A stretch of 64,000 bases of DNA, from NCBI GenBank assembly GCA_017555875.1, contig JAFZFN010000013.1, positions 117,905-181,904 on the forward strand. Direction: 5' to 3'. The notes beneath the pieces are model-generated. The model was not told the origin of the DNA, ran no database searches, and saw nothing but the letters and a program-made list of their open reading frames with translations. Each line of letters begins with the position of its first letter. Position 1 is the first letter of the stretch. The position numbers and the translations under genes were made by a program. This DNA comes from Bacteroidaceae bacterium (GTDB lineage Bacteria; Bacteroidota; Bacteroidia; Bacteroidales; Bacteroidaceae). This document shows positions 4,165-64,000 of this stretch, piece by piece.

Positions 4165-6438
4165 ATGAAACACATTAAACATTGGCTGGCTACAATAGCT
4201 GTGCTATTGTGCAGCATCGCGGTGAGTGCCCACGACTTTGAGGTGGGTGGCATTTATTACAACATCAACTCTAGGGAGAACAACACTGTAGAAGTAACCT
4301 ATCGAGGGGAATATACTTCCAGTTACTCTAACGAATACGTAGGGACGATAACTATCCCTGAGACCGTAACATATAATGACAAAACGTATCGGGTGACTCT
4401 GATTAGCGAATATGCCTTTTCATACTGTAGCAACCTTACCGGCATCAACATCCCAGAGAGCGTGACAAGCATTGGATGGAACGCTTTCGATGGTTGCACC
4501 AACATTACCAATATCAATATTCCTGAAAGTGTGCTGAGCATTAGAGATTTTGTTTTCTATAATTGCAGTAGTCTTACAAACGTCACCATCTCTGGAGGAG
4601 TAAAGAGTATTGGATATTGTGCTTTCTCAGGCTGCAGCAGTCTCACCAATATCACCATCCCTGAAGGAGTGACTACTATTGGAGAGAGTGCTTTCTCTGG
4701 TTGCAAGAAACTTACCAATATCAATATTCCCAAGAGCGTGGTGTCCATTGGAAATTGGGCATTTTCTAATTGCAGTAATTTTACTTCCGTCACAATCCCT
4801 GAGAACGTGACTAGTATTGGAAACGGGGCTTTCTCTGGTTGCACTGGGGAGCTCTTTGTAAATTGTAATATTACAGCATCAGGAAATGAAACGGGTAGTG
4901 GCGCATTCTATAATAGTAATTTTACAAGTGTGATAATTGGAGACAACGTAACGAATATCGGAAACTATACTTTCGAGAAATGTAAAAACCTTACCTCCGT
5001 CACTATTCCCCAAGGAGTGACGAGCATTGGAAATAGTGTTTTCGGTGGTTGCACTAGCCTCACCAATATTACCATCCCCAAGGGAGTGGCTAGCATTGGA
5101 AAATATGCCTTCTCAGGTTGCAGCAATCTTACTAACCTCACCATCCCAGAGGGAGTGACAAGTATTGGGGAAGGAGCTTTCTACAACTGTAGCAGTATCT
5201 CCGACATTTTCGTCCCCGAAAGTGTGACACATGTTGGAGAGAATGCTTTCAATGGTACAGCATGGTATAATTATCAACCCGAGGGGATGGTATATGTCGA
5301 TAAGGTTATATACAAATATAAGGGGACAATACCTGCAAATGTCCCCATTGTAATAAAAGATGGAACGAAAGTCGTTGCAGATGGAGCCTTCTCTTATTGT
5401 AACAACCTTACCGACATTATTATGCCTAAGAGCCTAACGGGCATTGGTAATAAATCTTTTAGGGGTTGCAGCAGCCTCACCAACATCATAATCCCCGAGA
5501 GTGTGACAAGCATTGGATGGAACGCTTTCGATGGTTGCAGCAGCCTCACCAACATCATAATCCCTGAGAGTGTGACGAATATTGGAGTGCAAGCTTTCGA
5601 TGGTTGCTGCAGCCTCACCTCCATCACCCTCCCTGAGAACGTGTCGAGTATCGGAGACTATGCTTTCCGTAATTGTAGTAGTCTCACCTCCATCACTTGC
5701 GAAGCTATCAATCCCCCTACAATAGGAGGAAGTTATACATTCTATGGAGTAAACAAATCAATCTCTATCTATGTTCCAGAATCTTCTGTGTCAGCATATC
5801 AGTCAGCAAGCTATTGGAAAGACTTTGCCAATATCATCGGTGTTCTTCTTAAAGAACTGATTCTCACTATCAGTGAGTACGGCAGCGGCACCTACTGCTC
5901 GGAATATGCACTTGACTTCAGCGAGGTGGAGGGACTGAAGGCATATGCAGCCACAGGATATGATTCGGAGACAGGAGTTGTGACACTCACTCGCGTAATG
6001 ACTGCTAAGGCTGGCATGGGACTCTTCGTTAAGGGCGAGCCAGGCGACTATGTAGTACCTACATTGGAGAGCACCAGTTTCAATACACTGAACATGCTTG
6101 TAGGTACGTTGGAAGATGTCATCGTGAACGGAACTGATGGCCTCTATACAAACTACAAATATGCTGCCCCCGATGGCGAGCCTCTGTTCTATCAGTTTGC
6201 CGATGGCTCAACACAAAAGGCCGGACGTGCATACTTGCAGATACCTACCAGCTGGCTTACTACGACAGCGGCCAAGTCTATCAGCTATCGCTTCGATGAT
6301 GGAGAAACAACAGACATTGAGAACTCAGAAATCACAACTCCGAATTCAGAGTTCATCTACGACCTCTATGGTCGTCGTGTAGAGAATCCCGTCAAAGGCG
6401 GTGTCTACATCGTGAAAGGAAAGAAGATTGTATATTAA
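4165..6438 (+). CDS. BspA-like leucine-rich-repeat (LRR_5) surface protein
   Basis: 757 aa. An N-terminal signal peptide (about residues 1-22, ending SAVSA-like before HDFEVGG) is followed by a long array of BspA/TpLRR-type repeats of about 23 residues (consensus VTSIGxxAFxGCSSLTNIxIPES) from about residue 60 to 520. A globular region follows, and the last ~25 residues (DLYGRRV...GGVYIVKGKKIVY) resemble the short C-terminal sorting tail of Bacteroidota secreted proteins, so export by the type IX system is plausible since sprA lies in this window. Such proteins act in adhesion and host or matrix binding; the ligand here is unknown. Base composition is visibly more AT-rich than the surrounding housekeeping genes, and several repeat units are nearly identical at DNA level, suggesting repeat expansion and possible horizontal origin. 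Confidence 0.88.
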   Translation: MKHIKHWLATIAVLLCSIAVSAHDFEVGGIYYNINSRENNTVEVTYRGEYTSSYSNEYVGTITIPETVTYNDKTYRVTLISEYAFSYCSNLTGINIPESVTSIGWNAFDGCTNITNINIPESVLSIRDFVFYNCSSLTNVTISGGVKSIGYCAFSGCSSLTNITIPEGVTTIGESAFSGCKKLTNINIPKSVVSIGNWAFSNCSNFTSVTIPENVTSIGNGAFSGCTGELFVNCNITASGNETGSGAFYNSNFTSVIIGDNVTNIGNYTFEKCKNLTSVTIPQGVTSIGNSVFGGCTSLTNITIPKGVASIGKYAFSGCSNLTNLTIPEGVTSIGEGAFYNCSSISDIFVPESVTHVGENAFNGTAWYNYQPEGMVYVDKVIYKYKGTIPANVPIVIKDGTKVVADGAFSYCNNLTDIIMPKSLTGIGNKSFRGCSSLTNIIIPESVTSIGWNAFDGCSSLTNIIIPESVTNIGVQAFDGCCSLTSITLPENVSSIGDYAFRNCSSLTSITCEAINPPTIGGSYTFYGVNKSISIYVPESSVSAYQSASYWKDFANIIGVLLKELILTISEYGSGTYCSEYALDFSEVEGLKAYAATGYDSETGVVTLTRVMTAKAGMGLFVKGEPGDYVVPTLESTSFNTLNMLVGTLEDVIVNGTDGLYTNYKYAAPDGEPLFYQFADGSTQKAGRAYLQIPTSWLTTTAAKSISYRFDDGETTDIENSEITTPNSEFIYDLYGRRVENPVKGGVYIVKGKKIVY

Positions 6439-10755: not shown

Positions 10756-10763
10756 GTCTTTAG

Positions 10764-10864
10764 TTAGGAATGAGGAGTTAGGAATGAGGAATTAGGAATT
10801 TGCCGTCCGCAAGGACACGCATCGCGGAGCTACAACTCCTAATTCCTAACTCCTACTTCCTAAT
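10764..10864. repeat. Palindromic dispersed repeat between lysC and lysA
   Basis: Left arm 10764-10800 consists of TTAGGAATGAGGA-type units, the core 10801-10833 is GC-rich (TGCCGTCCGCAAGG, then GCATCGCGGAGC), and the right arm 10834-10864 is inverted units (ACTCCTAATTCCTAA). The core recurs in opposite orientation at 46268-46303 (GCTCCGCGATGCGTG, then CGGATGGCAAA). The right arm overlaps the stop codon of lysC (TAG, complement of 10860-10862). Confidence 0.75.
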
Positions 10865-12176
10865 TGTTAAAAAGTTTGTCCTGCAACGCCTGCAACGCAC
10901 GCTTCTTGTCGCTCTCCTTGATGAGGAACGAGATGTTGTAGTTGCTACCACCAAATGAAATCATACGTACGGGGATGTCGCGCATGGCATCCATGGCACG
11001 AGCTTCGAAGCCGATGTTCTCCCAATCCATGTCGCCCACCACGCAGATGATACACATGTTGTGGTCGATGGTCACGGTGCCATATTTCTTGAGGTCGTGC
11101 ACGATCTCGTTGAGGTGCTTGGTGTTGTCGATACTCATGGATACGCCCACCTCAGAGGTGCAGATCATGTCGATGGAGGTCTGGTAGCTCTCGAAGATCT
11201 CAAACACCTTGCGCAAGAAACCATGGGCGAGGAGCATGCGGCTCGACTTGATCTTGATGGCGGTGATGTTCTCCTTGGCTGCTACGGCCTTGATGGTGCC
11301 AGGGTCGGCATCGTTGTTGATGGTGGTGCCAGGTGCCTCGGGCTCCATCGTATTGAGGAGCTTCACGGGGATGTTGGCAAACTTGGCGGGCTGTATGCAT
11401 GTGGGGTGGAGGATCTTGGCTCCGAAGTAACCCAGCTCGGCGGCCTCCTCAAAGTGGAGGTGGCGTACGGCTGTGGTACCCTCGACGATGCGGGGATCGT
11501 TGTTGTGCATGCCATCGATGTCGGTCCATATCTGTATCTCGCTAGCGCCCACGGCTGCACCGATGAGCGATGCGGTGTAGTCGCTGCCTCCACGCTGCAA
11601 GTTGTCGATCTCGCCGTTGATGTTACGGCAGATGAAGCCTTGGGTGATGTATATCTGTACCTTGGGACTGTTGGCAAGCACATCGGTCAGCTTCTCCTTG
11701 ATGTAGGCGCTGTCGGGCTCGCCATTCTTGTCGGTACGCATATAGTCGAGGGCAGCGATGAGGTGAGTGCTCACACCCTGCTCCTTGAGGTAATTGGTAA
11801 CCATGTTGGTTGAGATGATCTCGCCCTGAGCAAGGATGATGCGTTCCTCGATGGAGGTGAATAGCTGCTTGGTGAATGAGCGGAGGTAGTTGAACACATC
11901 CTTTACCAACTCGATGGTCTGTTGCTTATATTGTTCGGTGCTGTAGAGCTCGTTGATGTGTTTTCTGTAGAGCCCTTCGAGCTTGTTGATAACCTCGTTG
12001 GCGCCCTCAGGGTTGTTGTTGGCGAGGTAACCACAGATCTCGACTAGGGAGTTAGTGGTTCCCGACATGGCTGAGAGTACTACTATCTTGTCTTCGCCAT
12101 CGTTGATGAGCGAAGCTACGTTCTTCATTCTTGCTGCGGACCCCACGGAGGTGCCGCCAAATTTCATTACTTTCAT
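10860..12176 (-). CDS. lysC: Aspartate kinase
   Basis: 438 aa, monofunctional aspartokinase that phosphorylates aspartate, the entry step to lysine, methionine, threonine and diaminopimelate. The N-terminal KFGGTSVGSA is the nucleotide-binding signature; GSDYTASLIGAA and the WTDIDGM segment follow. The C-terminal third contains ACT-like regulatory domains, so feedback control by lysine is likely. It has no homoserine dehydrogenase domain. It lies 12 bases after the FtsE-like gene and upstream of lysA. Its stop codon is formed by the dispersed repeat at 10764-10864. Confidence 0.95.
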   Translation of the reverse strand: MKVMKFGGTSVGSAARMKNVASLINDGEDKIVVLSAMSGTTNSLVEICGYLANNNPEGANEVINKLEGLYRKHINELYSTEQYKQQTIELVKDVFNYLRSFTKQLFTSIEERIILAQGEIISTNMVTNYLKEQGVSTHLIAALDYMRTDKNGEPDSAYIKEKLTDVLANSPKVQIYITQGFICRNINGEIDNLQRGGSDYTASLIGAAVGASEIQIWTDIDGMHNNDPRIVEGTTAVRHLHFEEAAELGYFGAKILHPTCIQPAKFANIPVKLLNTMEPEAPGTTINNDADPGTIKAVAAKENITAIKIKSSRMLLAHGFLRKVFEIFESYQTSIDMICTSEVGVSMSIDNTKHLNEIVHDLKKYGTVTIDHNMCIICVVGDMDWENIGFEARAMDAMRDIPVRMISFGGSNYNISFLIKESDKKRALQALQDKLFNN

Positions 12177-13377: not shown

Positions 13378-13396
13378 TAGGGTTTATTCTTAATGA

Positions 13397-13471
13397 GAGA
13401 TTCTTCACTTCGTCTAGAATGACAAGGGGCAATGATGCTCCATAGTCATTCTAAGCGTAGCGAAGAACCTC
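13397..13471. repeat. Palindromic intergenic repeat (GATTCTTC...TAGAATGAC)
   Basis: 13397-13423 and 13445-13471 are inverted copies of GA(G/T)-rich unit GATTCTTCxCTTCGxCTAGAATGAC with a few mismatches, separated by 21 bases. It fills the gap between the DUF4301 gene and the 134-aa gene, both on the minus strand, and could act as a terminator-like or REP-like hairpin. Confidence 0.65.
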
Positions 13472-13491
13472 ATAATACGAAATAGATTGTA

Positions 13492-36334: not shown

Positions 36335-36369
36335 GGGAATTGAAAATTGAGAATTGAAAATTGAAAGTT
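36335..36369. repeat. AATTGAAAATTGA units upstream of yggS
   Basis: Three units of (G)AATTGAAAATTGA ending in AAAGTTCGTGC. The same units occur at 42038-42061 and inside mfd. In the longer frame they would be read as part of the YggS N-terminus, which is why the downstream ATG is preferred. Confidence 0.7.
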
Positions 36370-36471
36370 CGTGCAATCGCTCAGCGAGCGAGGCCGAAGT
36401 TTGACGGAGTCAAAGATGCTATCACCTTTAACCCTTAACCTTTCACCCTTAACCTTTCACCCTTAAATCAC

Positions 36472-40236: not shown

Positions 40237-42036
40237 ATGGACTATACACAAAACTTAAACACGCCGTGGTTTGTGCGCTTCACCCAGTGGCGCGAGCGGC
40301 ATATCAGTGCCAAGACCTTTACGCTCATCCTTGCCGTGCTCGTGGGGCTCTGCTCGGCCTTTGCTGCACTGACGCTGAAGCATCTCATTCACTTCATACA
40401 GCATCTCCTCACCGAGAACTTTACCATCAATGGGGCCAACTACCTCTACCTGCTCTATCCCGTGGTGGGTATCTTCCTGGCAGGCCTCTTCATCCGCTAC
40501 ATCGTGCGCGACGACATCGGACATGGTGTGACGAAGATTCTCTACGCCATCTCGCGTAAGCAAGCCCGCATACGTCCTCACAATATGTACTCGTCGGTCC
40601 TGGCCAGTTCGATTACGATCGGTTTCGGCGGATCGGTCGGTGCCGAGGCCCCCATCGTGCTGACGGGCTCGGCCATCGGCTCCAACCTGGGGCGTCTGTT
40701 TCGTGTCGATGCCCGCACGATGATGCTCCTTGTGGGGTGTGGTGCTGCCGGTGCTGTCGCGGGCATCTTCAAGGCGCCCATCGCGGGCTTGGTGTTCACC
40801 ATCGAGGTGCTCTTGATAGACCTCACGATGTCGTCGCTCATGCCACTGCTCATCTCGAGCGTGACGGCCGCCACGGTGTCCTACATAGCCACGGGCACGG
40901 AATCGATGTTCCACTTCACCATGGTCAACTCGTTCACCATGGAGCGCATCCCCTACGTCATCCTCCTGGGCATCGTGTGTGGCTTCGTGTCGCTCTATTT
41001 CTCTGAGACGATGAACAAGCTGGAGGACTTCTTCCGCAGATACAAGAATCCCTACGTGAAGTTTGTCATCGGTGGCATCGCGCTCAGCCTGCTCATCTTC
41101 CTCTTCCCCTCGCTCTATGGTGAGGGCTACGAGACCATCGAGCTGCTCCTCAATGGCAGCACTGAGGGCGAGTGGGGCGCTGCGATGGACAACTCCTTCT
41201 TCTATGGTCACTCGCGCTTGCTGCTCGTCTATCTTGCTCTGGTCGTGCTGTTCAAGGTCTTTGCCACCACGGCTACGAATGCTGGTGGAGGCTGTGGCGG
41301 TATCTTTGCTCCCAGCCTGTTCTTGGGGTGTATATCGGGATTTGTCTTCTCACACCTCTGCAACACGATGGGTGTCCATGTCTACCTCCCCGAGAACAAC
41401 TTTGCCCTCTTCGGCATGGCGGGTCTGATGAGTGGTGTCATGCACGCTCCGCTCACGGGCATCTTCCTCATTGCCGAGCTCACGGGTGGCTATGACCTCT
41501 TCTTGCCGCTGATGATCACGTCGGTGTTCTCCTACCTCACCATCCGTGTGTTCCAGTCACACAGCATCTACTCGATGCGTCTGGCCAAGAAGGGTGAACT
41601 GCTGACCCATCATAAGGACCAGTCCATCCTCACCCTGATGCGTACGGAGAATGTCATCGAGAAGGACTTCAAGGCCACCACGGCCGATATGGAGCTGGGG
41701 CGTTTTACGACTGTGATCTCTGAGTCGCGCCGCAACCTCTTCCCTGTGCTCAACAAGGACAATCGCCTCGTGGGTATCGTGCAGCTCGACGATGTGCGCC
41801 ACTACATGTTCCGCAGCGAGCTCTATCGGCGCTACACGGTGGACAAGTTTATGCGCGACCCTGTGGCACGCATCTCGGTCAATGATGCCATGGATGTCGT
41901 GATGCGCAAGTTTGACGAGACACGCGCCTGGAACCTCCCCGTCGAGGATGAGGAGGGGCGCTACCTGGGCTTCGTGTCGCGCTCCAAGATCTTCAATGAG
42001 TATCGCAAGATCATGCTCGACTATTCGGACGAATAA
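40237..42036 (+). CDS. ClC-type chloride channel/transporter with C-terminal CBS pair
   Basis: 599 aa from ATG 40237. About ten to twelve membrane helices (residues ~28-440) form a ClC core: the GSVGAEAPI segment (132-140) contains the gating glutamate position (Glu137), and GGCGGIFAPSLFLG is the anion-binding GxFxP loop. Two CBS domains occupy the C-terminal ~140 residues (VIEKDFKATTADMELGRF..., VARISVNDAMDVVMRKFDE...) and probably sense nucleotides. The family moves chloride or, in some members, fluoride; the GREGP-type loop is closer to the chloride transporters. Start choice is set by the promoter. Confidence 0.92.
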   Translation: MDYTQNLNTPWFVRFTQWRERHISAKTFTLILAVLVGLCSAFAALTLKHLIHFIQHLLTENFTINGANYLYLLYPVVGIFLAGLFIRYIVRDDIGHGVTKILYAISRKQARIRPHNMYSSVLASSITIGFGGSVGAEAPIVLTGSAIGSNLGRLFRVDARTMMLLVGCGAAGAVAGIFKAPIAGLVFTIEVLLIDLTMSSLMPLLISSVTAATVSYIATGTESMFHFTMVNSFTMERIPYVILLGIVCGFVSLYFSETMNKLEDFFRRYKNPYVKFVIGGIALSLLIFLFPSLYGEGYETIELLLNGSTEGEWGAAMDNSFFYGHSRLLLVYLALVVLFKVFATTATNAGGGCGGIFAPSLFLGCISGFVFSHLCNTMGVHVYLPENNFALFGMAGLMSGVMHAPLTGIFLIAELTGGYDLFLPLMITSVFSYLTIRVFQSHSIYSMRLAKKGELLTHHKDQSILTLMRTENVIEKDFKATTADMELGRFTTVISESRRNLFPVLNKDNRLVGIVQLDDVRHYMFRSELYRRYTVDKFMRDPVARISVNDAMDVVMRKFDETRAWNLPVEDEEGRYLGFVSRSKIFNEYRKIMLDYSDE

Positions 42037-42037
42037 A

Positions 42038-42138
42038 TTGAAAATTGAAAGTTGAAAATTCGTGCGAGTGGGCGCATTGCCTCCGGACCACACCATAAAT
42101 CATAAATCAAAAATCATAAATTACAAATCATAAATCAA
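42038..42138. repeat. Dispersed repeat units between the ClC gene and nitroreductase
   Basis: 42038-42061 holds AATTGAAAATTGAAAGTTG units, 42062-42094 a GC-rich core (TGCGAGTGGGCGCATTGCCTCCGG), and 42095-42138 five ATCATAAATCAAA units that end three bases before the nitroreductase start codon. The last unit type is the same as that before the GH97 gene (755-783). Confidence 0.7.
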
Positions 42139-46220: not shown

Positions 46221-46346
46221 GGAGTTAGGAATTGTCAGCAAATGAGAATTTAGGAATTAGGAGTTAGGAATTAAGGCTCCGCGATGCGTGCCCTGCCGGA
46301 TGGCAAAATTCCTAATTCCTAACTCCTAATTCCTAATTCCTAATTC
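46221..46346. repeat. Palindromic dispersed repeat between yigZ and the FKBP gene
   Basis: Arms of AGGAGTTAGGAATT (46221-46274) and inverted AATTCCTAATTCCTAACTCC (46308-46346) surround a core GCTCCGCGATGCGTGCCC then GCCGGATGGCAAA (46276-46307). The core is the reverse complement of the core at 10801-10833. The right arm reaches into the stop codon of the FKBP gene. Confidence 0.75.
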
Positions 46347-48242: not shown

Positions 48243-48440
48243 AAGGTCCGAAGTACGAAGTCCGAAGTTACCTGCGCAGTGTGCCGACTTTTTCGCGAGT
48301 GAGCACTATAAAAAAAGAGGCTTATTTAAGTATTATATATACTCGTATATCTAATACAAAAATAAGGATTTTTTTACCTCATCCTTTTTGCACCATCTCG
48401 GAGCGCGGAAAATAACTTCGTACTTCGTACTTCGGACCTT
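48243..48440. repeat. 27-bp inverted repeat in the 770-bp gap before the exported-protein operon
   Basis: 48243-48269 (AAGGTCCGAAGTACGAAG...) and 48414-48440 (...CTTCGTACTTCGGACCTT) are reverse complements over 27 bases with a single mismatch, 144 bases apart. The enclosed sequence is AT-rich without an ORF. The rest of 47835-48242 contains other low-copy repeats (ATTACTCAGATTACTCGGATT at 48079-48101, AATTCCTAATTCCTAACTCC at 48159-48180, and CGCGCATAATGCGCG at 48212-48226) and no gene. Confidence 0.65.
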
Positions 48441-53311: not shown

Positions 53312-53552
53312 AAGGAAATTTCCCCATCCGTGGGGAAATCTCCTTCATTTGTGTTGCTTTGCGCTGGGAGAGGGAATTGTATTTTTAGGAGTTAAAGGGA
53401 GATAGAAGGAGATAGTCGCTTCGCTCCTTGGGGAGATAAAGGTCGAATGTTTTTTACGCGAGAAAAGACATTTGGCATTTAACTCCATTTATCTCCCTCT
53501 AACTCCCCTTAACTCCTAATTTCTAACTCCTAACTCCTAACTCCTAATTCTT
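53312..53552. repeat. Intergenic hairpin and palindromic repeat array downstream of manC
   Basis: 53312-53325 and 53332-53345 form a 14-bp hairpin (AAGGAAATTTCCCC / GGGGAAATCTCCTT). From 53391 the GGAGTTAAAGGGAGATAGAAGG units, a core with TTTTTTACGCGAG, and inverted units (AACTCCATTTATCTCCCTCTAA) repeat the design of 38391-38519. The inverted AACTCCTAATT units run to 53552 and include the manC stop codon. CAAAGGTA at 53258-53265 is a likely -7 box for the Ser/Arg-rich gene. Nothing else is present in 53208-53543. Confidence 0.7.
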
Positions 53553-54723: not shown

Positions 54724-56781
54724 ATGGACTTTAATCTCATCTCCGACTATCAGCCCATGGGTGATCAGCCCGAAGCGATAGCACAGCTCACCGAGGGGGT
54801 GCTCCGCGGTGTGCCCGCACAGACACTGCTCGGTGTCACTGGCTCGGGCAAGACCTTCACCATAGCCAACATCATCAAGAATGTGGGTCGCCCCACACTC
54901 ATCCTCAGCCACAACAAGACCTTGGCCGCGCAGCTCTATAGCGAGATGAAGAGCTTCTTCCCCCACAATGCCGTGGAGTATTACGTCTCCTACTACGACT
55001 ACTACCAGCCCGAGGCCTACATCCCCTCTACAGACACCTACATCGAGAAGGACCTCGCCATCAACGACGAGATAGACAAGCTGCGCCTACGGGCCACCTC
55101 GGCCCTGCTCTCGGGAAGGAACGATGTTATCGTGGTCTCCTCCGTGTCGTGTATCTATGGCATGGGCAATCCGGCAGAGTTCTACAACAGCATGATTGAG
55201 GTGCGTGTGGGCATGAAGCTCGACCGCAACGTACTCCTGCGCCGCCTCGTCGACAGCCTCTACGTGCGCAACGACCTCGACCCAGGGCGTGGCAACTTCC
55301 GTGTCAAGGGCGACACCGTGGACATCTACCTCGCCTATGCCGACGACATGCTACGCATACAGTTCTGGGACGATGAGATCGACGCCATCGAGGAGATTGA
55401 CCCCGTGAGCGGCATGCGCATGAATACCTACGACGGCTACAAGATATACCCCGCCAACCTCTTCATGACCAGCAAGGATAGCACCCTGCAGGCCATATAC
55501 AAGATAGAGGACGACCTCGCACAGCGGGTCGACTACTTCCGCGAGGTAGGCAAGCCCCTCGAGGCCAAGAGACTCCACGAACGCGTCACCTACGACATGG
55601 AGATGATGCGCGAGCTGGGACACTGCTCGGGCATCGAGAACTACTCACGCTACTTTGACGGACGAGAGCCTGGCACACGTCCCTATTGTCTGCTCGATTT
55701 CTTCCCCAAAGACTACCTCATGGTCATCGATGAGAGCCATGTCAGCGTTCCCCAGATACGTGCCATGTATGGTGGCGACCGTGCCCGCAAACTCAACCTC
55801 GTGGAGTATGGCTTCCGTCTTCCCGCAGCCATGGACAACCGTCCCCTACGATTCGAGGAGTTCGAGGAGATGACCCATCAGGTCATCTACGTAAGCGCCA
55901 CCCCTGCCGATTACGAGCTCATCCAGAGCGAGGGTGTCGTGGCCGAACAGCTCATCCGCCCCACAGGCCTGCTCGACCCCATCATCGATGTGCGCCCCAG
56001 CCTCAATCAGATGGACGATCTCATGGAGGAAATCATCGTGCGTGCCGAGCGCGACGAGCGCACTCTCGTGGTCACCCTCACCAAGCGCATGGCTGAGGAA
56101 CTCACCGAGTATCTGCTGGGTCATCAAGTGCGATGCACCTATATCCATAGCGATGTCGACACCATGGAGCGTGTCGAGATCATGAATGCTCTGCGTCGAG
56201 GCGAGCATGACGTGCTCGTCGGGGTCAACCTCCTCCGCGAGGGACTCGACCTACCCGAGGTGTCGCTCGTGGCCATTCTCGATGCCGACAAGCAGGGCTT
56301 CCTCCGCGACCATCGCTCACTCACACAGACAGCGGGCCGTGCAGCCCGCAACGTCAACGGACGTGTCATCATGTATGCCGATCACATCACCGACAGCATG
56401 GCCAAGACCATCAATGAGACCAACCGTCGACGCGAGAAGCAGCTCGCCTACAACGAGGCTCATGGCATCACACCCCAGCAGATAAAGAAAGAGATCAAGA
56501 GTGGCCTCACCCCAACCCTCTCGCAAGGAGAGGGGGCTACAGAGTCCGCCCAAAGACATCCGGCAGGCAATTCAGAATTCAAAATTCAGAATTCAGAATT
56601 CAGTACCATTGCTGCCGATCCCATCGTGGAGTACATGTCGCGTAGCCAATTGGAGAAGAGCATCGCCCGCACCCGCAAGCTGATGCAGGAGGCTGCCAAG
56701 CAGCTCAACTTTACCGAGGCTGCCCAGTACCGCGACGAGATGTTTCGCCTTGAGGAAATCCTTCGAGGAAAGGGCGAGTGA
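54724..56781 (+). CDS. uvrB: UvrABC excinuclease subunit B
   Basis: 685 aa. DNA-damage verification helicase of nucleotide excision repair. Walker A GVTGSGKT (37-44), the damage-probing beta-hairpin YYDYYQPEAYIPSTDTYIEKD, helicase motifs to QTAGRAARN and the C-terminal UVR domain QLEKSIARTRKLMQEAAKQLNFTEAAQYRDEM that binds UvrA and UvrC. Between residues about 595 and 626, ahead of the UVR domain, lies an extra segment with GEGATESAQRHPAGNSEFK then IQNSEFS, translated from dispersed repeat DNA. The helicase core and UVR domain are intact, so the enzyme is probably active. Confidence 0.96.
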   Translation: MDFNLISDYQPMGDQPEAIAQLTEGVLRGVPAQTLLGVTGSGKTFTIANIIKNVGRPTLILSHNKTLAAQLYSEMKSFFPHNAVEYYVSYYDYYQPEAYIPSTDTYIEKDLAINDEIDKLRLRATSALLSGRNDVIVVSSVSCIYGMGNPAEFYNSMIEVRVGMKLDRNVLLRRLVDSLYVRNDLDPGRGNFRVKGDTVDIYLAYADDMLRIQFWDDEIDAIEEIDPVSGMRMNTYDGYKIYPANLFMTSKDSTLQAIYKIEDDLAQRVDYFREVGKPLEAKRLHERVTYDMEMMRELGHCSGIENYSRYFDGREPGTRPYCLLDFFPKDYLMVIDESHVSVPQIRAMYGGDRARKLNLVEYGFRLPAAMDNRPLRFEEFEEMTHQVIYVSATPADYELIQSEGVVAEQLIRPTGLLDPIIDVRPSLNQMDDLMEEIIVRAERDERTLVVTLTKRMAEELTEYLLGHQVRCTYIHSDVDTMERVEIMNALRRGEHDVLVGVNLLREGLDLPEVSLVAILDADKQGFLRDHRSLTQTAGRAARNVNGRVIMYADHITDSMAKTINETNRRREKQLAYNEAHGITPQQIKKEIKSGLTPTLSQGEGATESAQRHPAGNSEFKIQNSEFSTIAADPIVEYMSRSQLEKSIARTRKLMQEAAKQLNFTEAAQYRDEMFRLEEILRGKGE
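56504..56602. repeat. Dispersed repeat translated within uvrB
   Basis: 56504-56536 holds CTCACCCCAACCCTCTCGC/GGAGAGGGG-type inverted units, 56537-56568 a core containing CATCCGGCAGGC (compare GCCTGCCGGATG in the 46276 core), and 56569-56602 four units of (C)AGAATT CAGAATT. No stop codon is created. The AGAATTC units recur at 63970-64000. Confidence 0.75.
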
Positions 56782-56879: not shown

Positions 56880-57797
56880 ATGGAAAAGATTATCGGACTT
56901 ATCAATGCTCCCTTCACACCATTCTACGAGGATGGTGAGGTGAACTATGAACCCATCCCTGCCTACGCGGAGATGTTGCAGAAGAATGGACTCAAGGGCG
57001 TGTTCATCAATGGCTCGTCGGGTGAGGGATATATGCTCACTGAGGAGGAGCGCATAGCGCTTGCTGAGGTGTGGATGAAGGCATCACCGAAGGACTTCAA
57101 GGTGATCGTACACGTAGGTAGCACCTGCGTGAAGAGCTCATGCCGCATGGCTGCTCACGCACAGAAGATAGGAGCTTTCGGTATTGGTGTCATGGCACCT
57201 CCCTTCCCTAAGATTGGTCGCATAGAGGAATTGGTGAAGTACTGCGAGGAGATTGCTGCTGCCGCTCCTGAGCTGCCCTTCTACTACTACCACATCCCTG
57301 CATTCAATGGGGCCTACTTCTCTATGGTGGAGTTCCTCAAGGCGGTGGACGGACGCATCCCCAACTTTGCGGGCATCAAGTACACCTACGAGAGCATCTA
57401 CGAGTATAACCAATGTCGCCTCTACAAGAACGGTAAGTTCGATATGCTGCATGGACAGGACGAAACCATCCTTCCCTCACTCGCTATGGGTGGCGCACAG
57501 GGTGGCATCGGTGGCACTACAAACTATAACGGATGCAACCTCGTGGGCATCATCGACGCATGGAACGCAGGTGACTTGGAGAAGGCACGAGAGCTGCAAA
57601 ACTTTGCGCAGGAGGTCATCAACGTCATCTGCCACTATCGCGGCAACATCGTGTGTGGTAAGCGCATCATGAAACTCATCGGTCTGGACCTCGGTCCCAA
57701 CCGTACTCCGTTCCAGAACATGACAGATGCAGAGGAAGAGGCTTGCCGCAAGGAGCTCGAAGCCATCAACTTCTTTGAGCGTTGCAATAAGTTCTAA
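56880..57797 (+). CDS. nanA: N-acetylneuraminate lyase
   Basis: 305 aa, DapA/NAL superfamily aldolase. Schiff-base Lys167 (FAGIKYTY), catalytic Tyr137 (YYYHIP) and the GSSGEGY loop (45-51) with its carboxylate-binding Ser/Thr position (SG rather than TT) point to sialic acid lyase rather than dihydrodipicolinate synthase. It splits N-acetylneuraminate to ManNAc and pyruvate, typical of bacteria that feed on host mucin. No sialidase, transporter or epimerase gene accompanies it here; it is monocistronic between a promoter and a strong terminator. Confidence 0.9.
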   Translation: MEKIIGLINAPFTPFYEDGEVNYEPIPAYAEMLQKNGLKGVFINGSSGEGYMLTEEERIALAEVWMKASPKDFKVIVHVGSTCVKSSCRMAAHAQKIGAFGIGVMAPPFPKIGRIEELVKYCEEIAAAAPELPFYYYHIPAFNGAYFSMVEFLKAVDGRIPNFAGIKYTYESIYEYNQCRLYKNGKFDMLHGQDETILPSLAMGGAQGGIGGTTNYNGCNLVGIIDAWNAGDLEKARELQNFAQEVINVICHYRGNIVCGKRIMKLIGLDLGPNRTPFQNMTDAEEEACRKELEAINFFERCNKF

Positions 57798-57821
57798 AAA
57801 GAAAGGGCATCAATAGATAGC

Positions 57822-57863
57822 GCGAGAGGACACATAGTGCCCTCTCGCATTGTTTTTTTTTTT
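57822..57863 (+). terminator. Rho-independent terminator after nanA
   Basis: GCGAGAGG at 57822-57829 pairs with CCTCTCGC at 57841-57848 and is followed by a run of twelve T residues (57852-57863). Confidence 0.93.
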
Positions 57864-57897
57864 ACTAGGGAGTCTTAGATAAAGACATTGTGTATTC

Positions 57898-60800
57898 TCA
57901 ATAGTGCATCATCATCGACAGCACGCCCAAGGCTTCTTCTACTGTCTTGATCCCTTTGATGAGCAGGCTACGCTTGCCAGAGAGTTCGCGGAAGCGGCAC
58001 TCGTAAGGAGACATGGCGGTGTAGTTCATCACACGGCCAAAGGCTGCACTATCATAGTAGGGGCTCTCGAGGTTGCTCACGAAGTAGAGTGCCATCTGGC
58101 CACCCTTGAGGAGAATCTTCTCTATACCGAGCTGCTTGCCCAGACGACGCAGGGGAACGACGCGCAGTAGCTCCTCACCAGTGGGGGGGATGGGACCAAA
58201 GCGGTCGGTGAGGCGGGTACGGAACTTGCTGAGCTCTTCGTCCTTCTCCAAGTTGTCGAGCTCGCGATAGATGAGCATGCGCTCACTGCTGGTGGGGATG
58301 TACTCGTCGGGGAAGAGCAGCTCGAGGTCGCTCTCTAAGGCACACTCCTCGACGAAGCCTTCACCGCTAATCTTGCCATCGGCGCCCGTGTCGCCCATGA
58401 TGAGGTCGGCAAACTCATTGGTCTTGAGCTCATGTACGGCCTCGCCCAAAATCTTCTGATAGGTCTCGTAGCCGAGGTCGGCAATGAAGCCACTCTGCTC
58501 GGCACCGAGGAGGTTGCCCGCACCGCGGATGTCGAGGTCCTGCATAGCGATGTGGATGCCACTACCCAAATCGGTGAAGTTCTCGATGGCTTGCAGGCGA
58601 CGTCGGGCCTCGGGAGTGAGCACAGAGAGGGGCGGTGAAAGGAGGTAGCAGAAGGCCTTCTTGTTGCCACGTCCCACGCGGCCACGCATCTGGTGCAGGT
58701 CACTGAGACCGAAGTTGTGCGCCTGGTTGATGATGATGGTATTGGCATTGGGGATGTCGATACCGTTCTCCACGATGGAGGTGGCGATGAGCACGTCGTA
58801 GTCGTGGTTGACGAAGCTCATGATAACCTTCTCTAACTCCTCGGGTGGCATCTGTCCGTGACCGATGCAGATGCGGGCATCGGGTACACACCGCGTGATG
58901 AGGGCAGCTAGCTCGGGAAGGTTTTGTATGCGGTTGTTGATGAAGAAGAGCTGTCCGTTACGGCTGAGCTCGAAGTTGACAGCTTCGCGGATGATCTCCT
59001 CGTTGAAGGTATGTACCTCGGTCTGTATGGGGTAGCGGTTGGGAGGTGGGGTCTGTATCACACTCAGGTCGCGGGCACCCATGAGTGAGAACTGCAAGGT
59101 ACGTGGGATGGGGGTGGCGGTGAGCGTGAGTGTGTCTACCGACACCTTCAGCTGGCGGAGCTTCTCCTTCACCGAGACGCCAAACTTCTGCTCTTCGTCG
59201 ATGATGAGCAGGCCGAGGTCCTTGAACTGTACGCTCTTACCAATGAGTTTGTGAGTACCCACGACGATGTTGACCTCGCCGTTCTTGAGGCCCTCGAGCA
59301 CCTTCTTGGTGTCGGCAACTGAGCGGGCACGGCTCAGGTACTCTACGCGGCAAGGAAGATTCTTGAGACGCTCTGAGAAGGTACGCCAGTGCTGATAGGC
59401 CAGCACGGTGGTGGGCACAAGCACAGCCACCTGCTTATTGTCGCAGGCGGCCTTGAAGGCGGCGCGCACAGCTACCTCGGTCTTGCCGAAGCCCACATCG
59501 CCACATACCAGACGGTCCATAGGGCGCTCGCGCTCCATGTCGGCCTTGATGTCGAGCGTTGCTTTCAGCTGGTCGGGAGTGTCTTCATAGAGGAAGCTAG
59601 CCTCGAGCTCGTGTTGTAGGAAGCTGTCGGGACTATAGGCAAAGCCCTTCTCTTGTGTGCGCTGCGAGTAGAGCTTGATGAGGTCGCGGGCGATGTCCTT
59701 GATCTTGGTTTTGGTGCGCTCCTTGAGCTTCTCCCATGCGCCCGTGCCGAGTTTGTTGATACGTGGGGCCTCACCCTCTTTGCTCTTATATTTGGAAATC
59801 TTATGCAATGAGTGGATGGATACAAACACCACGTCCTCGTTGCTATAGACGAGTTTGATGACCTCTTGTGTGCTGTTGCCGTTGGGCATACGCACAAGTC
59901 CAGCAAAGCGACCTACACCATGGTCAATATGTACGACATAGTCGCCCGGCTCAAACTGAGAGAGCTCCTTGAGTGAGATGGCCATCTTGCCACTACGCGC
60001 CTTGTCGCTGCGTAGGTTGTACTTGTGGAAGCGGTCGAAGATCTGATGGTCGGTGAAGCAGGCCACACGCATGGTGTTGTCGGTGAAGCCTCCGTGGATG
60101 GTCTTGTCGACAGCTGTGAAGGGGATGTCATTGCCACGCTCCTCGAAGATGGTCTTGAGTCGTTCGGCCTGCTTGGCGCTATCGGTGAGTATATATATAT
60201 GGTAGTCACGATGGATGAGGTCGGTGAGCGACTGCTCCACTAGTTCGAAGTTCTTATGGAAGAGTGGTTGAGGAGAGGTGTCGAAGGTTACCGTTGCCTG
60301 CACTGTGGTGCTGGCCTTAGTGCCAAACTCAATACGGCGTAAGGCTGTAGTAGCTTTTATAAAGTCTGGTGACTTTAATAATTGAAAACTGAAAGTTGAT
60401 AATTGAGAATTATTTCCATCTTGCTGCAAGTCTGAAGGTGTTATCGCACTTTCAATTTTCAATTTTGAATTTTCAATTTCAGCGCTAAGTTGGTCTATTC
60501 TTTCGTGTACCCAGAAGTAATCTTGGAACGCAAGAGCAGAACTCTCAGGAAGGAGGTCGAAGAAGGATACTAAGCCCTGTGCCTCGCTATTCTCGAAGTG
60601 GGGTACGATACTCACGTGGGGAACCTTGTCGCGCGAGAGCTGCGACTCGATCTCGAAGGTACGTATGCTGTCGACCTCGTCACCAAAGAAGTCGATACGG
60701 TAGGGGTATTCGGAGGCATAGGAGAAGACATCGACGATACTACCACGCACAGCAAATTGTCCTGGCTCATACACATAGTCGACTCGCTCGAAACCCTCGC

Positions 60801-61395
60801 CCATGAGCTGCTGCTCCATAACAGGAATCTCTATGGTGTCGCCTACAGAAAGTGACAGCGAACGGTCGGTGAGAGTCGCTTGAGATACCACCAGTTCGGC
60901 TAGGGCATCGGGGTAAGAGACAATATATAATGGACAATTGAGAGTGGACAATTGATAATTATTTCCATCCGGATGGCTTTCGTGTTTTCCGCAAGTCTCT
61001 GTACTATTAATTTTCAATTTTCCATTCTCAATTTTCAATTCGCTAAGTCTCGTCAGCACCTCTGTGCGCAGCACCTCGTTCGCAGAGTCTTTTTGCCCAT
61101 ATTTGATGGCACGCTTATAGGATGAGGGAAAGAAGAGCACTTGCCCATCGCCCAGCATCTGTGTGAGGTCGTGGTAGAAGTATCCGGCTTCTTCTAAGTC
61201 GTTGAGCACGAAGAGTGATACAGGAACTTGCCATGGCGTGTCACTTGCCGCCAAAGCTGCAAAGAGCATCGGAGTGGCCGATGCTGACAATCCCTTGAGG
61301 TGTATTGTGTGAACACTCTCATCGTTCCATACATGCCCGAAGGCATTAGCACCCGAATGCTTGGCAAAGCACTTGACCAGGTCTAGAATCTCCAT
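57898..61395 (-). CDS. mfd: Transcription-repair coupling factor Mfd
   Basis: 1165 aa. Removes RNA polymerase stalled at lesions and recruits UvrA. UvrB-like N-terminal homology region, RNA-polymerase-interacting domain (FEPGDYVVHIDHGVGRFAGL, ~481-500), helicase Walker A GDVGFGKTEVA (~633), TRG motif region and C-terminal autoinhibitory domain are all present. Two segments in the N-terminal region (about 120-155 and 307-340) share the pattern IEN-x-KLKI-x-S...DGNN-x-QLST and are translations of dispersed palindromic repeats. Remaining sequence is normal. uvrB, the other repair gene here, lies 1.1 kb away and also contains such a segment. Confidence 0.96.
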   Translation of the reverse strand: MEILDLVKCFAKHSGANAFGHVWNDESVHTIHLKGLSASATPMLFAALAASDTPWQVPVSLFVLNDLEEAGYFYHDLTQMLGDGQVLFFPSSYKRAIKYGQKDSANEVLRTEVLTRLSELKIENGKLKINSTETCGKHESHPDGNNYQLSTLNCPLYIVSYPDALAELVVSQATLTDRSLSLSVGDTIEIPVMEQQLMGEGFERVDYVYEPGQFAVRGSIVDVFSYASEYPYRIDFFGDEVDSIRTFEIESQLSRDKVPHVSIVPHFENSEAQGLVSFFDLLPESSALAFQDYFWVHERIDQLSAEIENSKLKIESAITPSDLQQDGNNSQLSTFSFQLLKSPDFIKATTALRRIEFGTKASTTVQATVTFDTSPQPLFHKNFELVEQSLTDLIHRDYHIYILTDSAKQAERLKTIFEERGNDIPFTAVDKTIHGGFTDNTMRVACFTDHQIFDRFHKYNLRSDKARSGKMAISLKELSQFEPGDYVVHIDHGVGRFAGLVRMPNGNSTQEVIKLVYSNEDVVFVSIHSLHKISKYKSKEGEAPRINKLGTGAWEKLKERTKTKIKDIARDLIKLYSQRTQEKGFAYSPDSFLQHELEASFLYEDTPDQLKATLDIKADMERERPMDRLVCGDVGFGKTEVAVRAAFKAACDNKQVAVLVPTTVLAYQHWRTFSERLKNLPCRVEYLSRARSVADTKKVLEGLKNGEVNIVVGTHKLIGKSVQFKDLGLLIIDEEQKFGVSVKEKLRQLKVSVDTLTLTATPIPRTLQFSLMGARDLSVIQTPPPNRYPIQTEVHTFNEEIIREAVNFELSRNGQLFFINNRIQNLPELAALITRCVPDARICIGHGQMPPEELEKVIMSFVNHDYDVLIATSIVENGIDIPNANTIIINQAHNFGLSDLHQMRGRVGRGNKKAFCYLLSPPLSVLTPEARRRLQAIENFTDLGSGIHIAMQDLDIRGAGNLLGAEQSGFIADLGYETYQKILGEAVHELKTNEFADLIMGDTGADGKISGEGFVEECALESDLELLFPDEYIPTSSERMLIYRELDNLEKDEELSKFRTRLTDRFGPIPPTGEELLRVVPLRRLGKQLGIEKILLKGGQMALYFVSNLESPYYDSAAFGRVMNYTAMSPYECRFRELSGKRSLLIKGIKTVEEALGVLSMMMHY
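60378..60480. repeat. In-frame palindromic repeat in mfd, copy 2 (residues ~307-340)
   Basis: On the plus strand: arm of AATTGAAAACTGAAAGTTGATAATTGAG units (60378-60411), core ATTTCCATCTTGCTGCAAGTCTG (60412-60447), inverted arm CTTTCAATTTTCAATTTTGAATTTTC (60448-60480). Core start ATTATTTCCATC is shared with the other mfd copy. Confidence 0.8.
60931..61041. repeat. In-frame palindromic repeat in mfd, copy 1 (residues ~120-155)
   Basis: Arm TGGACAATTGAGAGTGGACAATTGATAATT (60931-60960), core ATTTCCATCCGGATGGC...GCAAGTCTC (60961-61005), inverted arm ATTTTCAATTTTCCATTCTCAATTTTC (61006-61041). The core includes CCGGATGGC, found also in the intergenic repeat at 46276-46307. Confidence 0.8.
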
Positions 61396-61412
61396 ATTCC
61401 AAATGTCTTTAG

Positions 61413-61440
61413 GGCAGACGCAGCCAAAGCCACGTCTGCC
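61413..61440. repeat. Hairpin between ilvB and mfd
   Basis: GGCAGACG at 61413-61420 and CGTCTGCC at 61433-61440 are exact reverse complements, with GC(C)/GGC pairing extending inward. No T-run on the minus strand, so ilvB and mfd may still be partly co-transcribed. Confidence 0.55.
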
Positions 61441-61512
61441 GTTCTGTGTATTTTCTGAGTTGTATAGTTGGAATCTGTCGCGAAACAGACTCCTATATCA
61501 TCGGTTGCTGTA

Positions 61513-63207
61513 TCAGCAATCTGTTGCGTTCATCATCATCACATTCACTGCTCCGCCCGGAGGAGTCATGGGCATCACGTTCTCGCCCTGCATGATGGCT
61601 GCTTCGAGCAAGTAGGGACCATCAGTGTCAAGCATCTCGCGGATGGCATCTTCGAGGTCAGCACGGTCTGTAACAATGCGTGAGGGGATGCCATAGGCCT
61701 CGGCAATCTTCATGTAGTCGGGGTTTGCCATCGGGGTGAAAGAGTAGCGTTTGCCAAAGAAAAGCTCCTGCCACTGGCGTACGTTGCCCAGGTAGTTATT
61801 GTTGAGTAGGATCATCTTTACAGGGGCACCCGTCTCCATGATGGTGCCAAACTCTTGGATACTCATCTGTATGCCACCATCGCCCATGAAGAGACATACG
61901 GTGCGGTCGGGAGCACCGAAGGTGGCTCCTATGGCTGCGGGCAGACCGAAGCCCATAGTGCCGAGACCACCCGAGGTGATGATGCTGCGCTTCTGTGTGT
62001 ACTGGAAATAGCGTGCCGACATCATTTGGTTTTGACCGACGTCGGTGACGAGGATGGCCTTGTTGCCCGAAGCCTCGCTCACGGCTCGAGCCACCTCGCC
62101 CATGCGCAGGGCTCCTTCCTCGGGGTGTATGGCATGGCGGATGACTTCGTCGTACTCCTTCTCTTCGTAGGGAACGAAGCTGTCAATCCAATTAGTATGT
62201 TTGCGCTCGCTGATGGCCTCGGTGAGCAGAGCAAGTGTCTTCTTGCAGTCGCCTAGGACGGCTACGTCAGCGTGTACATTCTTGTTGATCTCGGCAGGAT
62301 CAATATCGAGGTGTATCACCTTTGCCTGTTTGGCATAGGCGTCGAGGCGGCCAGTGACGCGGTCGTCGAAACGCATACCCACGGCAATGAGCAGGTCACA
62401 CTCGTTGGTCTTGGTGTTGGGGCCTAGGTTGCCGTGCATTCCCAACATACCCTTGCGCAAGCGATGTCCGTGGGGTAGGGTAGAGAGTCCCAAAAGGGTA
62501 CATCCTACGGGGATGTCGGCTTTTTCGACGAAGGTGCGCAATTCTTCTGTGGCGTTGCCTAGCTCAACTCCTTGTCCCGAGAGTAGCAGGGGGCGTTCGG
62601 CGGCATCGATGAGTGCTGCTGCCTCAGCTATGCTGGCAGTTGAGGTCTCGGGTACGGCAATGTAGCCACGGTCAACAATGATGGAGGTGGGCTTGAAATC
62701 GACCATGCCCACCTGGGCATTCTTGGCAAAGTCGAGCACTACGGGGCCAGGACGTCCTGAGCCTGCGATATGGAAGGCGCGTGCTACGGCCCATGCAATG
62801 TCTTCTGCTCGACGTATCTGATAACTCCACTTAGTGATTGGCTGTGTGATGCCTACGAGGTCGACCTCTTGGAAGGCATCGGTGCCGAGGAAGCCTGCAG
62901 CTACCTGTCCGGCAATGACAACGATGGGAGTGCTGTCGAGCATGGCATCTGCCACACCCGTTATGGTGTTAGTAGCACCAGGGCCACTAGTGACGATACA
63001 TACACCCACCTTGCCCGAAGAGCGGGCATAGCCTTGGGCTGCATGAGCGGCACCTTGCTCGTGGCGTACGAGTATCTGCTTGAAGTCATTCTGATGGTCA
63101 AACATGGCGTCAAACACGGGCATGATGCTACCGCCAGGGTAGCCGAACACTGTGTCGACTCCCTCATGGATAAGTGCTCGCATGAGAGCTTCTGAGCCTG
63201 TAATCAT
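61513..63207 (-). CDS. ilvB: Acetolactate synthase large subunit
   Basis: 564 aa, thiamine diphosphate enzyme for the first common step of valine, leucine and isoleucine synthesis. Catalytic Glu50 in VRHEQGAAHAAQGYARSSG, FGYPGGSIMP, and the ThDP motif GDGGIQMS...LLNNNYLG are present; the C-terminus ends PMTPPGGAVNVMM as in related enzymes. It follows ilvD on the same strand. No regulatory subunit gene (ilvN) follows; mfd comes next. Confidence 0.95.
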   Translation of the reverse strand: MITGSEALMRALIHEGVDTVFGYPGGSIMPVFDAMFDHQNDFKQILVRHEQGAAHAAQGYARSSGKVGVCIVTSGPGATNTITGVADAMLDSTPIVVIAGQVAAGFLGTDAFQEVDLVGITQPITKWSYQIRRAEDIAWAVARAFHIAGSGRPGPVVLDFAKNAQVGMVDFKPTSIIVDRGYIAVPETSTASIAEAAALIDAAERPLLLSGQGVELGNATEELRTFVEKADIPVGCTLLGLSTLPHGHRLRKGMLGMHGNLGPNTKTNECDLLIAVGMRFDDRVTGRLDAYAKQAKVIHLDIDPAEINKNVHADVAVLGDCKKTLALLTEAISERKHTNWIDSFVPYEEKEYDEVIRHAIHPEEGALRMGEVARAVSEASGNKAILVTDVGQNQMMSARYFQYTQKRSIITSGGLGTMGFGLPAAIGATFGAPDRTVCLFMGDGGIQMSIQEFGTIMETGAPVKMILLNNNYLGNVRQWQELFFGKRYSFTPMANPDYMKIAEAYGIPSRIVTDRADLEDAIREMLDTDGPYLLEAAIMQGENVMPMTPPGGAVNVMMMNATDC

Positions 63208-63279
63208 ATATTATAATATTATATGGTTATTGAGTTCTTGTAATTCTAAAAGGATAGAACAAAGCTACAAATATGAGCT

Positions 63280-64000
63280 TCAATCTATCAGGCGTATGGC
63301 ACCCTTGTCGGCCGAACTCACAAGCGAAGCATAAGCCTTGAGTGCTTTGGATACTTCTCGCTTGCGTGTTACGGGAGTCATGGGGCGTGAGGTCAGTTCT
63401 TCATCGCTGAGACGCACGTTGATGGTGCGGGCGGGAATGTCAATATCGATGATGTCGCCTGTGACAATCTTTCCGATGTTGCCACCAGCTGCAGCTTCGG
63501 GAGAGATGTGGCCGATGCTGAGTCCTGATGTTCCTCCAGAAAAACGACCGTCGGTGATGAGGGCACAAGCCTTGCCCAAGTGCTTGGACTTGATGTATGA
63601 GGTGGGGTAGAGCATTTCCTGCATGCCGGGACCTCCCTTGGGGCCCTCGTGGGTGATGACAACTACGTCGCCAGCTACGATGTCGCCACCGAGGATACCC
63701 TCCACGGCAGCATCTTGAGAATCGTATACCTTGGCTGGGCCAGAGAACTTCCATATGCTCTCGTCCACACCTGCTGTCTTTACTACGCAACCATCTTGGG
63801 CGATGTTGCCCTTGAGTACAGCAAGTCCGCCATCTTTGGAGTAAGCATGCTCGAGATCGCGGATGCAACCCTCTGTACGGTCGGCGTCTAGTTCTTTATA
63901 ATAGGTCTCTTGCGAACCCATCACATTGCTGAACTTGCGGGCAGGAGCGCTGTGGTAGATGCGCTTGTCTAGTTCTGAATTCTGAATTCTGAATTCTGAA
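63280..64000 (-). CDS. ilvD: Dihydroxyacid dehydratase, C-terminal part (gene continues beyond the window)
   Basis: 240 codons to the window edge; the frame is open through 64000, so ATG 63924 is internal. Dehydrates dihydroxy-isovalerate and -methylvalerate in branched-chain amino acid synthesis, using an iron-sulfur cluster. Diagnostic segments are [66 protein letters not shown]. At the window edge the frame reads [22 protein letters not shown], where the first part is the translated AGAATTC repeat, so a repeat insertion is likely here too. ilvD and ilvB form an operon. Confidence 0.93.
63970..64000. repeat. AGAATTC units translated in ilvD at the window edge
   Basis: TTCTGAATTCTGAATTCTGAA on the plus strand, three and a half units of GAATTCT; cut by the end of the window. 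Same units as 56569-56602 in uvrB. Confidence 0.65.

Follow-up and report, generated by a model that had tools for sequence, protein, structure and literature searches.

In-frame palindromic elements with seven-base-unit arms in mfd and unrelated genes of a Bacteroidaceae genus

The gene mfd, encoding the transcription-repair coupling factor, lies on the minus strand of a 64,000-nucleotide stretch of contig JAFZFN010000013.1 (referred to as the window), which belongs to a Bacteroidaceae draft genome of 43 contigs and 78% completeness (G000). Two palindromic inserts are found in frame inside this gene, each composed of inverted arms of tandem 7-base units (heptads) around a core. Copies of the same element occur in a single frame in unrelated genes of the genus, and the loops occupied in one species are empty or hold other inserts in its congeners. 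The mfd inserts are probably members of a dispersed, mobile family of hairpin palindromes, kept in genes as tolerated and putatively translated loops.

Anatomy and reading frame of the mfd inserts

The mfd locus contains the following features, with positions counted along the window.

57898..61395, minus strand: mfd, host of both inserts, an intact open reading frame (ORF) of 1165 residues
60929..61041, minus strand: palindromic element 1 (site 1, residues ~120-153), inverted arms, hairpin z -4.1
61009..61041, minus strand: 5′ (sense) heptad arm of element 1, AATTGAA, AATTGAG, AATGGAA, AATTGAA, in which GGA replaces TGA in the third heptad
60961..61008, minus strand: core of element 1, with CCATCCGGATGG
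60929..60960, minus strand: 3′ (sense) heptad arm of element 1
60380..60479, minus strand: palindromic element 2 (site 2, residues ~307-341), inverted arms, hairpin z -3.1
60452..60479, minus strand: 5′ (sense) heptad arm of element 2, in which TCA replaces TGA in the second heptad
60407..60451, minus strand: core of element 2
60380..60406, minus strand: 3′ (sense) heptad arm of element 2, from the inverted-pair search

A sequence-only reading of the window had proposed two in-frame copies of a palindromic repeat inside mfd that leave the helicase core intact, and both proposals were borne out: the Pfam domains UvrB_inter, CarD_TRCF_RID, DEAD, Helicase_C, and TRCF are present in the unbroken frame, and an Mfd entry of the PDB is matched as well. 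The arms of both inserts consist of AATTGAA units on the 5′ side in the sense direction and of the complement TTCAATT on the 3′ side, the core edge reads GATGGAAATAATT in the sense direction, and each insert forms a better DNA hairpin than shuffled sequence does, with the z values given above. The further proposal that both copies follow the same design holds for the arms and for about 13 bases of core edge, but the remaining core differs in sequence and length, so that the inserts are two members of a family rather than one repeat copied whole. The word AATTATTTCCATC occurs exactly at 60408 and 60957, the only exact copies in the whole G000 draft, while up to two mismatches give four matches in the window against 0.81 expected. 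In a predicted model of Mfd residues 1-465 the Mfd fold is kept, and within the chain pLDDT drops below 50 solely at residues 132-141 and 143-151. An Rfam scan of 57000-64000 returned one match up to E 1, MIR781, which was rejected as a chance hit on the hairpin, being at 29 bits far under the cut-off of 88.

A pure AATTGAA array carries TGA in every frame each 21 bases. In the coding copies, one changed heptad with TCA or GGA in place of TGA holds the sense frame open and yields the S or G of the peptides KLKIENSKLKV and KLKIENGKLKI. In an unselected sample of arms with TGA in half or more of the heptads, all three frames were closed in 4/4 antisense arms in ORFs (some of these being the partner arms of in-gene elements) and in 8/10 arms outside ORFs, against 0/6 sense arms in ORFs. 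This pattern bears on the idea that the inserts are spliced out after transcription or bypassed in translation in an intron-like manner, as their position in conserved genes and their capacity to form hairpins might suggest. Sense arms avoid in-frame stops and antisense arms of in-gene copies do not, which would be needless if the insert were removed; the open sense frames thus render excision or bypass highly improbable.

The same loops in relatives and copies in unrelated genes

Comparison of 80 mfd orthologue loci, with G001 and G015 counted as one genome, revealed that the site 1 segment spans about 45 residues in the window protein versus 10-41 varied residues in the 69 of 79 orthologues readable there. 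Conserved, non-repeat sequence of the same length in distant orthologues, which the sequence-only reading had named as evidence against insertion, is thus not what this site shows. For site 2, where 44 of 79 readable orthologues were viewed, the picture is less simple, as two congeners (G003 and G005) keep an older, shorter and variable loop (EEGFSQQAV...), and the insert there seems to have partly replaced this loop.

Within the genus, site 1 was viewed in 14 genomes. The same element is present in G000, G006, and G015, relatives with other heptads in G007 and G012, two unrelated repeat types in G009 and G019, a single arm in G005, and almost nothing in G003; apart from the older loops just mentioned, site 2 holds a similar variety of inserts. 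Locus L033, from Bacteroidaceae bacterium RGIG8693, has both inserts, enlarged by further in-frame sequence; the addition comprises 69 bases in the first insert and, in the second, a repeat that translates to HPEQREGSQ...ILHFVQND. A different palindrome of the GTCATTCT...GAAGAA type, by eye alike one nested in the site 2 insert of L033, lies between ORFs at window positions 13387-13481. In some Prevotella-type genomes, site 1 contains exact period-7 runs of 25 (L048) and 20 (L057), with runs of at least 9 in 4/69 loci.

These comparisons also address the concern that the inserts are an artefact of assembling a draft genome from a metagenome, for which the fragmented and incomplete state of G000 and the end of its contig C1 in a heptad array might be quoted. 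The same element lies at the same mfd loop in G006 and G015, each with its own substitutions, which already makes an artefact unlikely at site 1, and as a general explanation it is scarcely credible.

A loop of the efflux-pump gene cusA was compared in 10 of 11 loci and the loops of gcvPB in 12 loci, partial genes being left out. One element is common to the cusA loop of G015, G006, and G005, and four other inserts occupy it in G003, G007, G019, and G008; in G009, G013, and G011 the loop is empty and ~40 residues shorter, so that 7/10 loci are filled with five kinds of insert. The same holds for two gcvPB loops, where species differ in the heptad and even in its orientation. A colinear comparison of G000 (464 kb) and G001 (400 kb) for intergenic empty sites aligned ~43 kb in 38 scattered pieces.

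Element copies in mfd and cusA are directly comparable. In G006 the two are identical at 78/84 bases, in the same orientation and frame; between G006 and G015, the cusA copies agree at 82/84 bases and the mfd copies at 82/84, and element 1 of the window shares 75/84 bases with the cusA copies of both genomes. A profile of eight copies matched 32 of 151 family genomes, including seven genus members (at least G016 and G010 were unmatched), and its matches lie in stop-free ORFs of at least 250 residues in 36/55 cases in the genus versus 5/63 in other genera. Thirty-five in-frame matches were examined, with host families taken from Pfam on 25 proteins and orthologous copies assigned by likeness. 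The 22 matches of at least 75 bases fall in 15 host families, comprising Mfd, MutS2, TopB, GcvPB, MetH, an RlmD/TrmA-type methyltransferase, MazG, glycogen synthase, a U32 peptidase, a SpoIID protein, CusA, TPR proteins, DUF6371, a protein with weak likeness to DUF3987, and one unnamed protein; shorter matches add eight more, namely RibF, UvrA, WecB, ThiE-ThiD, GH2, GH77, GH106, and a RecD-like helicase. Relative to PDB relatives, the insert corresponds to a gap in WecB (202-237 versus 9 residues) and GcvPB (334-365 versus 10), while that of TopB lies within a poorly aligned stretch near 475-510.

The arm pattern is present in 83/198 genomes of the order, and at least 40 matches are reached in three only (G000, G265, and G280), so its spread over lineages is uneven. 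Two loci of a different genus in the family (L219 and L217) have ORFs that, translated by eye, contain the in-frame right-arm peptides GNNSQLSIVNSHL and NNSQLSTLNSQL; one of these ORFs reads like an ABC transporter ATPase.

Heptad arrays, recurring cores and changing arms

The mfd arms belong to a large population of heptad arrays. The arm pattern AATTTTCAATTTTCAATT has 19 window matches with up to three mismatches against 0.01 expected, and 132 matches in the G000 genome with up to two mismatches versus 5 for the reversed control. The window contains 13 strong segments of period 7 (periods 5, 6 and 8-11 give 0-3), and a 464 kb sample of G000 contains 51 (periods 4-6 and 8-13 give 0-7). An 864 kb sample, consisting of the window and long contigs chosen for holding pattern matches, contains 23 merged period-7 arrays in ORFs, some of which are short and possibly spurious, and 92 outside, though 88% of it is coding.

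With the partner arm lying within 260 bases, the 74 period-7 arrays of the 464 kb G000 sample yielded 14 inverted pairs and the 92 such arrays found in 400 kb from a relative yielded 15, and other periods in G000 give 0-4 inverted pairs each. Several core words are strongly enriched beside arrays: ATCCGGATG 130-fold (6 near, 2 elsewhere), CCATCCGGA 79-fold (8 near, 5 elsewhere), and CCGGATGGC 57-fold (9 near, 8 elsewhere), with a few other words reaching 20- to 33-fold. Strong inverted repeats flank CCGGATGGC at 7/18 places and TCCGCGATG at 4/19, compared with 0/39 for four control words, in a test that also drew on five stretches picked for pattern matches. Around the recurring core words the arms vary: some are built of TTAGGAA, AATTGAA, or AGAGTGA heptads, others of 9-base units, AATCTCGCA among them. 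Arms of this last unit surround the same core word at L148 121 and at L146 8565 (minus-strand count).

An arm-swap test was carried out on 18 of the 35 matches, orthologous duplicates and matches shorter than 75 bases being excluded. Own arms pair better in total than swapped ones, a total reached by 9/10000 permutations, and by 198/10000 in a small set of eight that includes both mfd copies. We infer with caution that the two arms change in concert through the hairpin. Synonymous divergence is 0.21-0.42 in homologous inserts versus ~0.68 in the flank (few sites), perhaps owing to homogenisation.

Arrays of this kind could also arise in place, by a polymerase slipping 7 bases on AT-rich runs wherever a loop tolerates it, with no mobile element involved. 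The dominance of period 7, the existence of single-arm arrays, and the change of heptad and orientation between species at one gcvPB loop are all in line with this, as is the report, in one survey, that among short tandem repeats the heptanucleotide class predominates in most of the genomes covered (PMC4679880). Slippage does not account for the inversion of the arms around a core, for the enrichment of core words beside arrays, or for the presence in both mfd and cusA of one 84-base element whose core is not repetitive. Because the core is common to unrelated genes, slippage was rejected as the whole story, and we regard a purely local origin as rather unlikely.

About a dozen further arrays of other heptads (TTAGGAA, TTCTGAA, CATAAAT, CGAAGTA, and others) lie in the window, mostly between genes. 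Individual features are given below.

46241..46346, no strand assigned: relative between ORFs, TTAGGAA arms around core GGCTCCGCGATGCGTGCCCTGCCGGATGGCAA, hairpin z -8.2
10762..10870, no strand assigned: relative between ORFs, TTAGGAA arms, core GGCTCCGCGATGCGTGCCCTGCCGGATGGCAA reversed, hairpin z -7.1; its last 11 bases overlap the end of the next ORF
48243..48440, no strand assigned: intergenic inverted heptads of different sequence (CGAAGTA), from the inverted-pair search
53385..53547, no strand assigned: mostly intergenic, arms inverted, periods of 10 and 7 bases, from the period and inverted-pair searches
36338..36466, no strand assigned: heptad arrays of AATTGAA and ACCCTTA type flanking a core, from the period search
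42035..42137, no strand assigned: heptad arrays of AAATTGA and CATAAAT type flanking a core, from the period search
56569..56603, plus strand: in-frame heptad array (AATTCAG), a single arm within ORF 54724-56781, from the overlap of arrays and ORFs
63973..64000, minus strand: heptad array (TTCTGAA) inside an open frame at the contig end, from the ORF and period searches

The open frame around 63973..64000 reads like ilvD. Contig C1 of G000 stops exactly inside this array, so such repeats may break assemblies. In 6/12 in-ORF arrays of G000 and 1/11 of its relative, an in-frame heptad array directly precedes a [YFH]DLxGRxV tail, which we take to resemble the Bacteroidales C-terminal sorting tail; examples are found at window positions 6320-6355 and at L119 2883-2921, L128 13536-13564, L159 14066-14101, and L132 7758-7785, 10212-10252, and 18689-18729. 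The linker before this tail looks like a hot spot for heptad arrays.

Likely origin, known systems and significance

If, as is probable, the mfd inserts belong to a mobile palindrome family, elements would be copied to new places, and in-gene copies would persist only with an open frame, as a tolerated surface loop whose peptide has no selected function. Copying may proceed via the hairpin, driven either by an enzyme acting in trans, with a transposase of the Y1/HUH type as candidate, or by template switching as the DNA replicates. Insertion would be frequent and mostly harmful, with the survivors gathering at the few loops that tolerate ~30-40 extra residues, so that the same loops would be hit repeatedly by different palindromes. 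The arms may then alter by 7-base slippage and by arm-to-arm copying through the hairpin, both shifting together while the core stays.

Several observations weigh against this reading. No mover could be tied to the family: Y1_Tnp was found in 7/19 genus genomes and none in G000, which is 78% complete. No consistent target-site duplication was recognised by eye at filled and empty mfd and cusA sites, where the repeated ends blur the edges, and the genus members compared are drafts. In its rate of inverted pairing period 7 does not stand out, as period 10 gives 4 pairs from 20 arrays, and the co-change of arms is modest, the own partner ranking tenth or worse in 6/18 copies. The profile was made from coding copies and therefore favours open frames, with at most 51 candidates scored per genome, and 13/35 of the in-frame matches are short, several being one-armed. 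Open sense arms partly follow from the definition of an ORF, for which the antisense and intergenic arms serve as control. Finally, pN/pS values of 0.23-0.47 in clearly homologous inserts indicate some constraint.

This constraint would be expected if the inserts were kept for a function, be it as a protein linker, as an mRNA or DNA hairpin acting on expression, or as a binding site for a host protein. Several hosts are indeed repair or DNA enzymes (mfd, uvrA, mutS2, topB, and the RecD-like helicase), as also reported for intragenic repetitive extragenic palindromes (REPs) in other bacteria (PMC3733652). Compared with 0.06-0.08 in the rest of Mfd, the constraint on the inserts (few sites) is weak, and pN/pS is 0.98 at site 2 versus L033, which has the nested repeat (few sites). 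Moreover, the same loops are empty or carry unrelated inserts in congeners, the hosts are unrelated enzymes, and model confidence at site 1 is low, as expected of a disordered loop. Retention for a function is accordingly judged unlikely.

With regard to the mover, Y1 transposase-like proteins (L264-L270) were noted in G003, G005, G007, G008, G013, and G015, all with a cusA orthologue, together with an IS200-like copy in G004. Of eight Y1 loci of ~3 kb each, five contain period-7 arrays at some point, one of them with the core, which may be chance. The REP-associated tyrosine transposase (RAYT) type is a candidate mover only, Y1_Tnp being scarce and without clear link to the elements.

The mobile family reading can be carried further, to a protein-invading element whose small recurring core moves between housekeeping genes with interchangeable periodic arms (7-, 9-, perhaps 6-base), both arms being rewritten together in place with the frame kept; the loops would then serve as landing pads for one kind of palindrome after another, and a gut genus would thereby have a lasting supply of new protein loops. 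We put this extended version forward tentatively, as possible rather than probable.

Palindromes that survive inside genes are best known from Rickettsia, and Wolbachia contains similar elements. According to a 2024 review, the Rickettsia palindromic elements (RPEs) are ~150 bp palindromes of several families, found in frame in many unrelated genes and elsewhere (PMC10969869). The elements described here resemble them in being palindromic units of ~100-150 bp able to form a hairpin and in their in-frame insertion in many unrelated protein genes. The RPE-like nature suggested by the sequence-only reading is therefore supported, both by the same-frame copies in unrelated genes and by the empty or differently filled loops of congeners. 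The comparison is one of behaviour, drawn from descriptions of RPEs, and membership is not claimed: the host belongs to the Bacteroidaceae (nearest named relative by Mfd), not to Rickettsia, and the present elements have tandem-heptad arms, one core with different arms, and several palindromes using one loop.

Other known repeats share part of this behaviour. Intragenic REPs are reported to be dispersed palindromes, some in ORFs and several in DNA-repair genes including uvrA, and different REPs occupy about the same recB site in two Xanthomonas species (PMC3733652). According to the same source, REPs, which are tagged by GTAG or CGTC and associated with RAYT transposases, measure 20-40 bp, in contrast to the ~100-113 bp and heptad arms found here (PMC3733652). 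Neither tag occurs in the 84 bases of element 1 examined. The inverted arms recall the terminal inverted repeats of miniature inverted-repeat transposable elements (MITEs). In BrickBuilt, a MITE of Porphyromonas gingivalis, 23-base units lie between short terminal repeats and the described copies are always intergenic, whereas the present elements have both arms made of 7-base units and occur in frame within genes. The cyanobacterial STRR sequences are likewise tandem 7-base repeats. TAACTGA repeats are described as tandem 7-base units, mostly intergenic and present also in five Bacteroidetes; in the genome investigated their arrays are direct, apart from one set that is inverted (PMC4679880). 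The excess of tandem 7-base units over other periods is common to both; inverted pairs around a recurring core, many heptad sequences, and in-frame positions inside genes set the present elements apart.

Among the papers listed in our literature search, with most subscription journals outside it and some of its result lists incomplete, there was no account of such elements in Bacteroidales, and in the 2024 review palindromes shaping proteins elsewhere appear as no more than conceivable (PMC10969869). What is new here is the common core with exchangeable periodic arms, the re-use of the same loops, and the bacterial group concerned. In a gut bacterial genus, in-frame copies or pieces are present in 23 kinds of host gene. 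One altered heptad opening the sense frame, with the other strand closed, is a simple signature for use in other genomes, and where Bacteroidales proteins contain odd peptides of 30-40 residues resembling KLKIENSKLKV...DGNNSQFSILNSQL, these should be recognised as element sequence. Since empty and filled sites are found in close relatives, insertion tolerance, the evolution of protein loops, and the mechanism of movement become testable by comparison.

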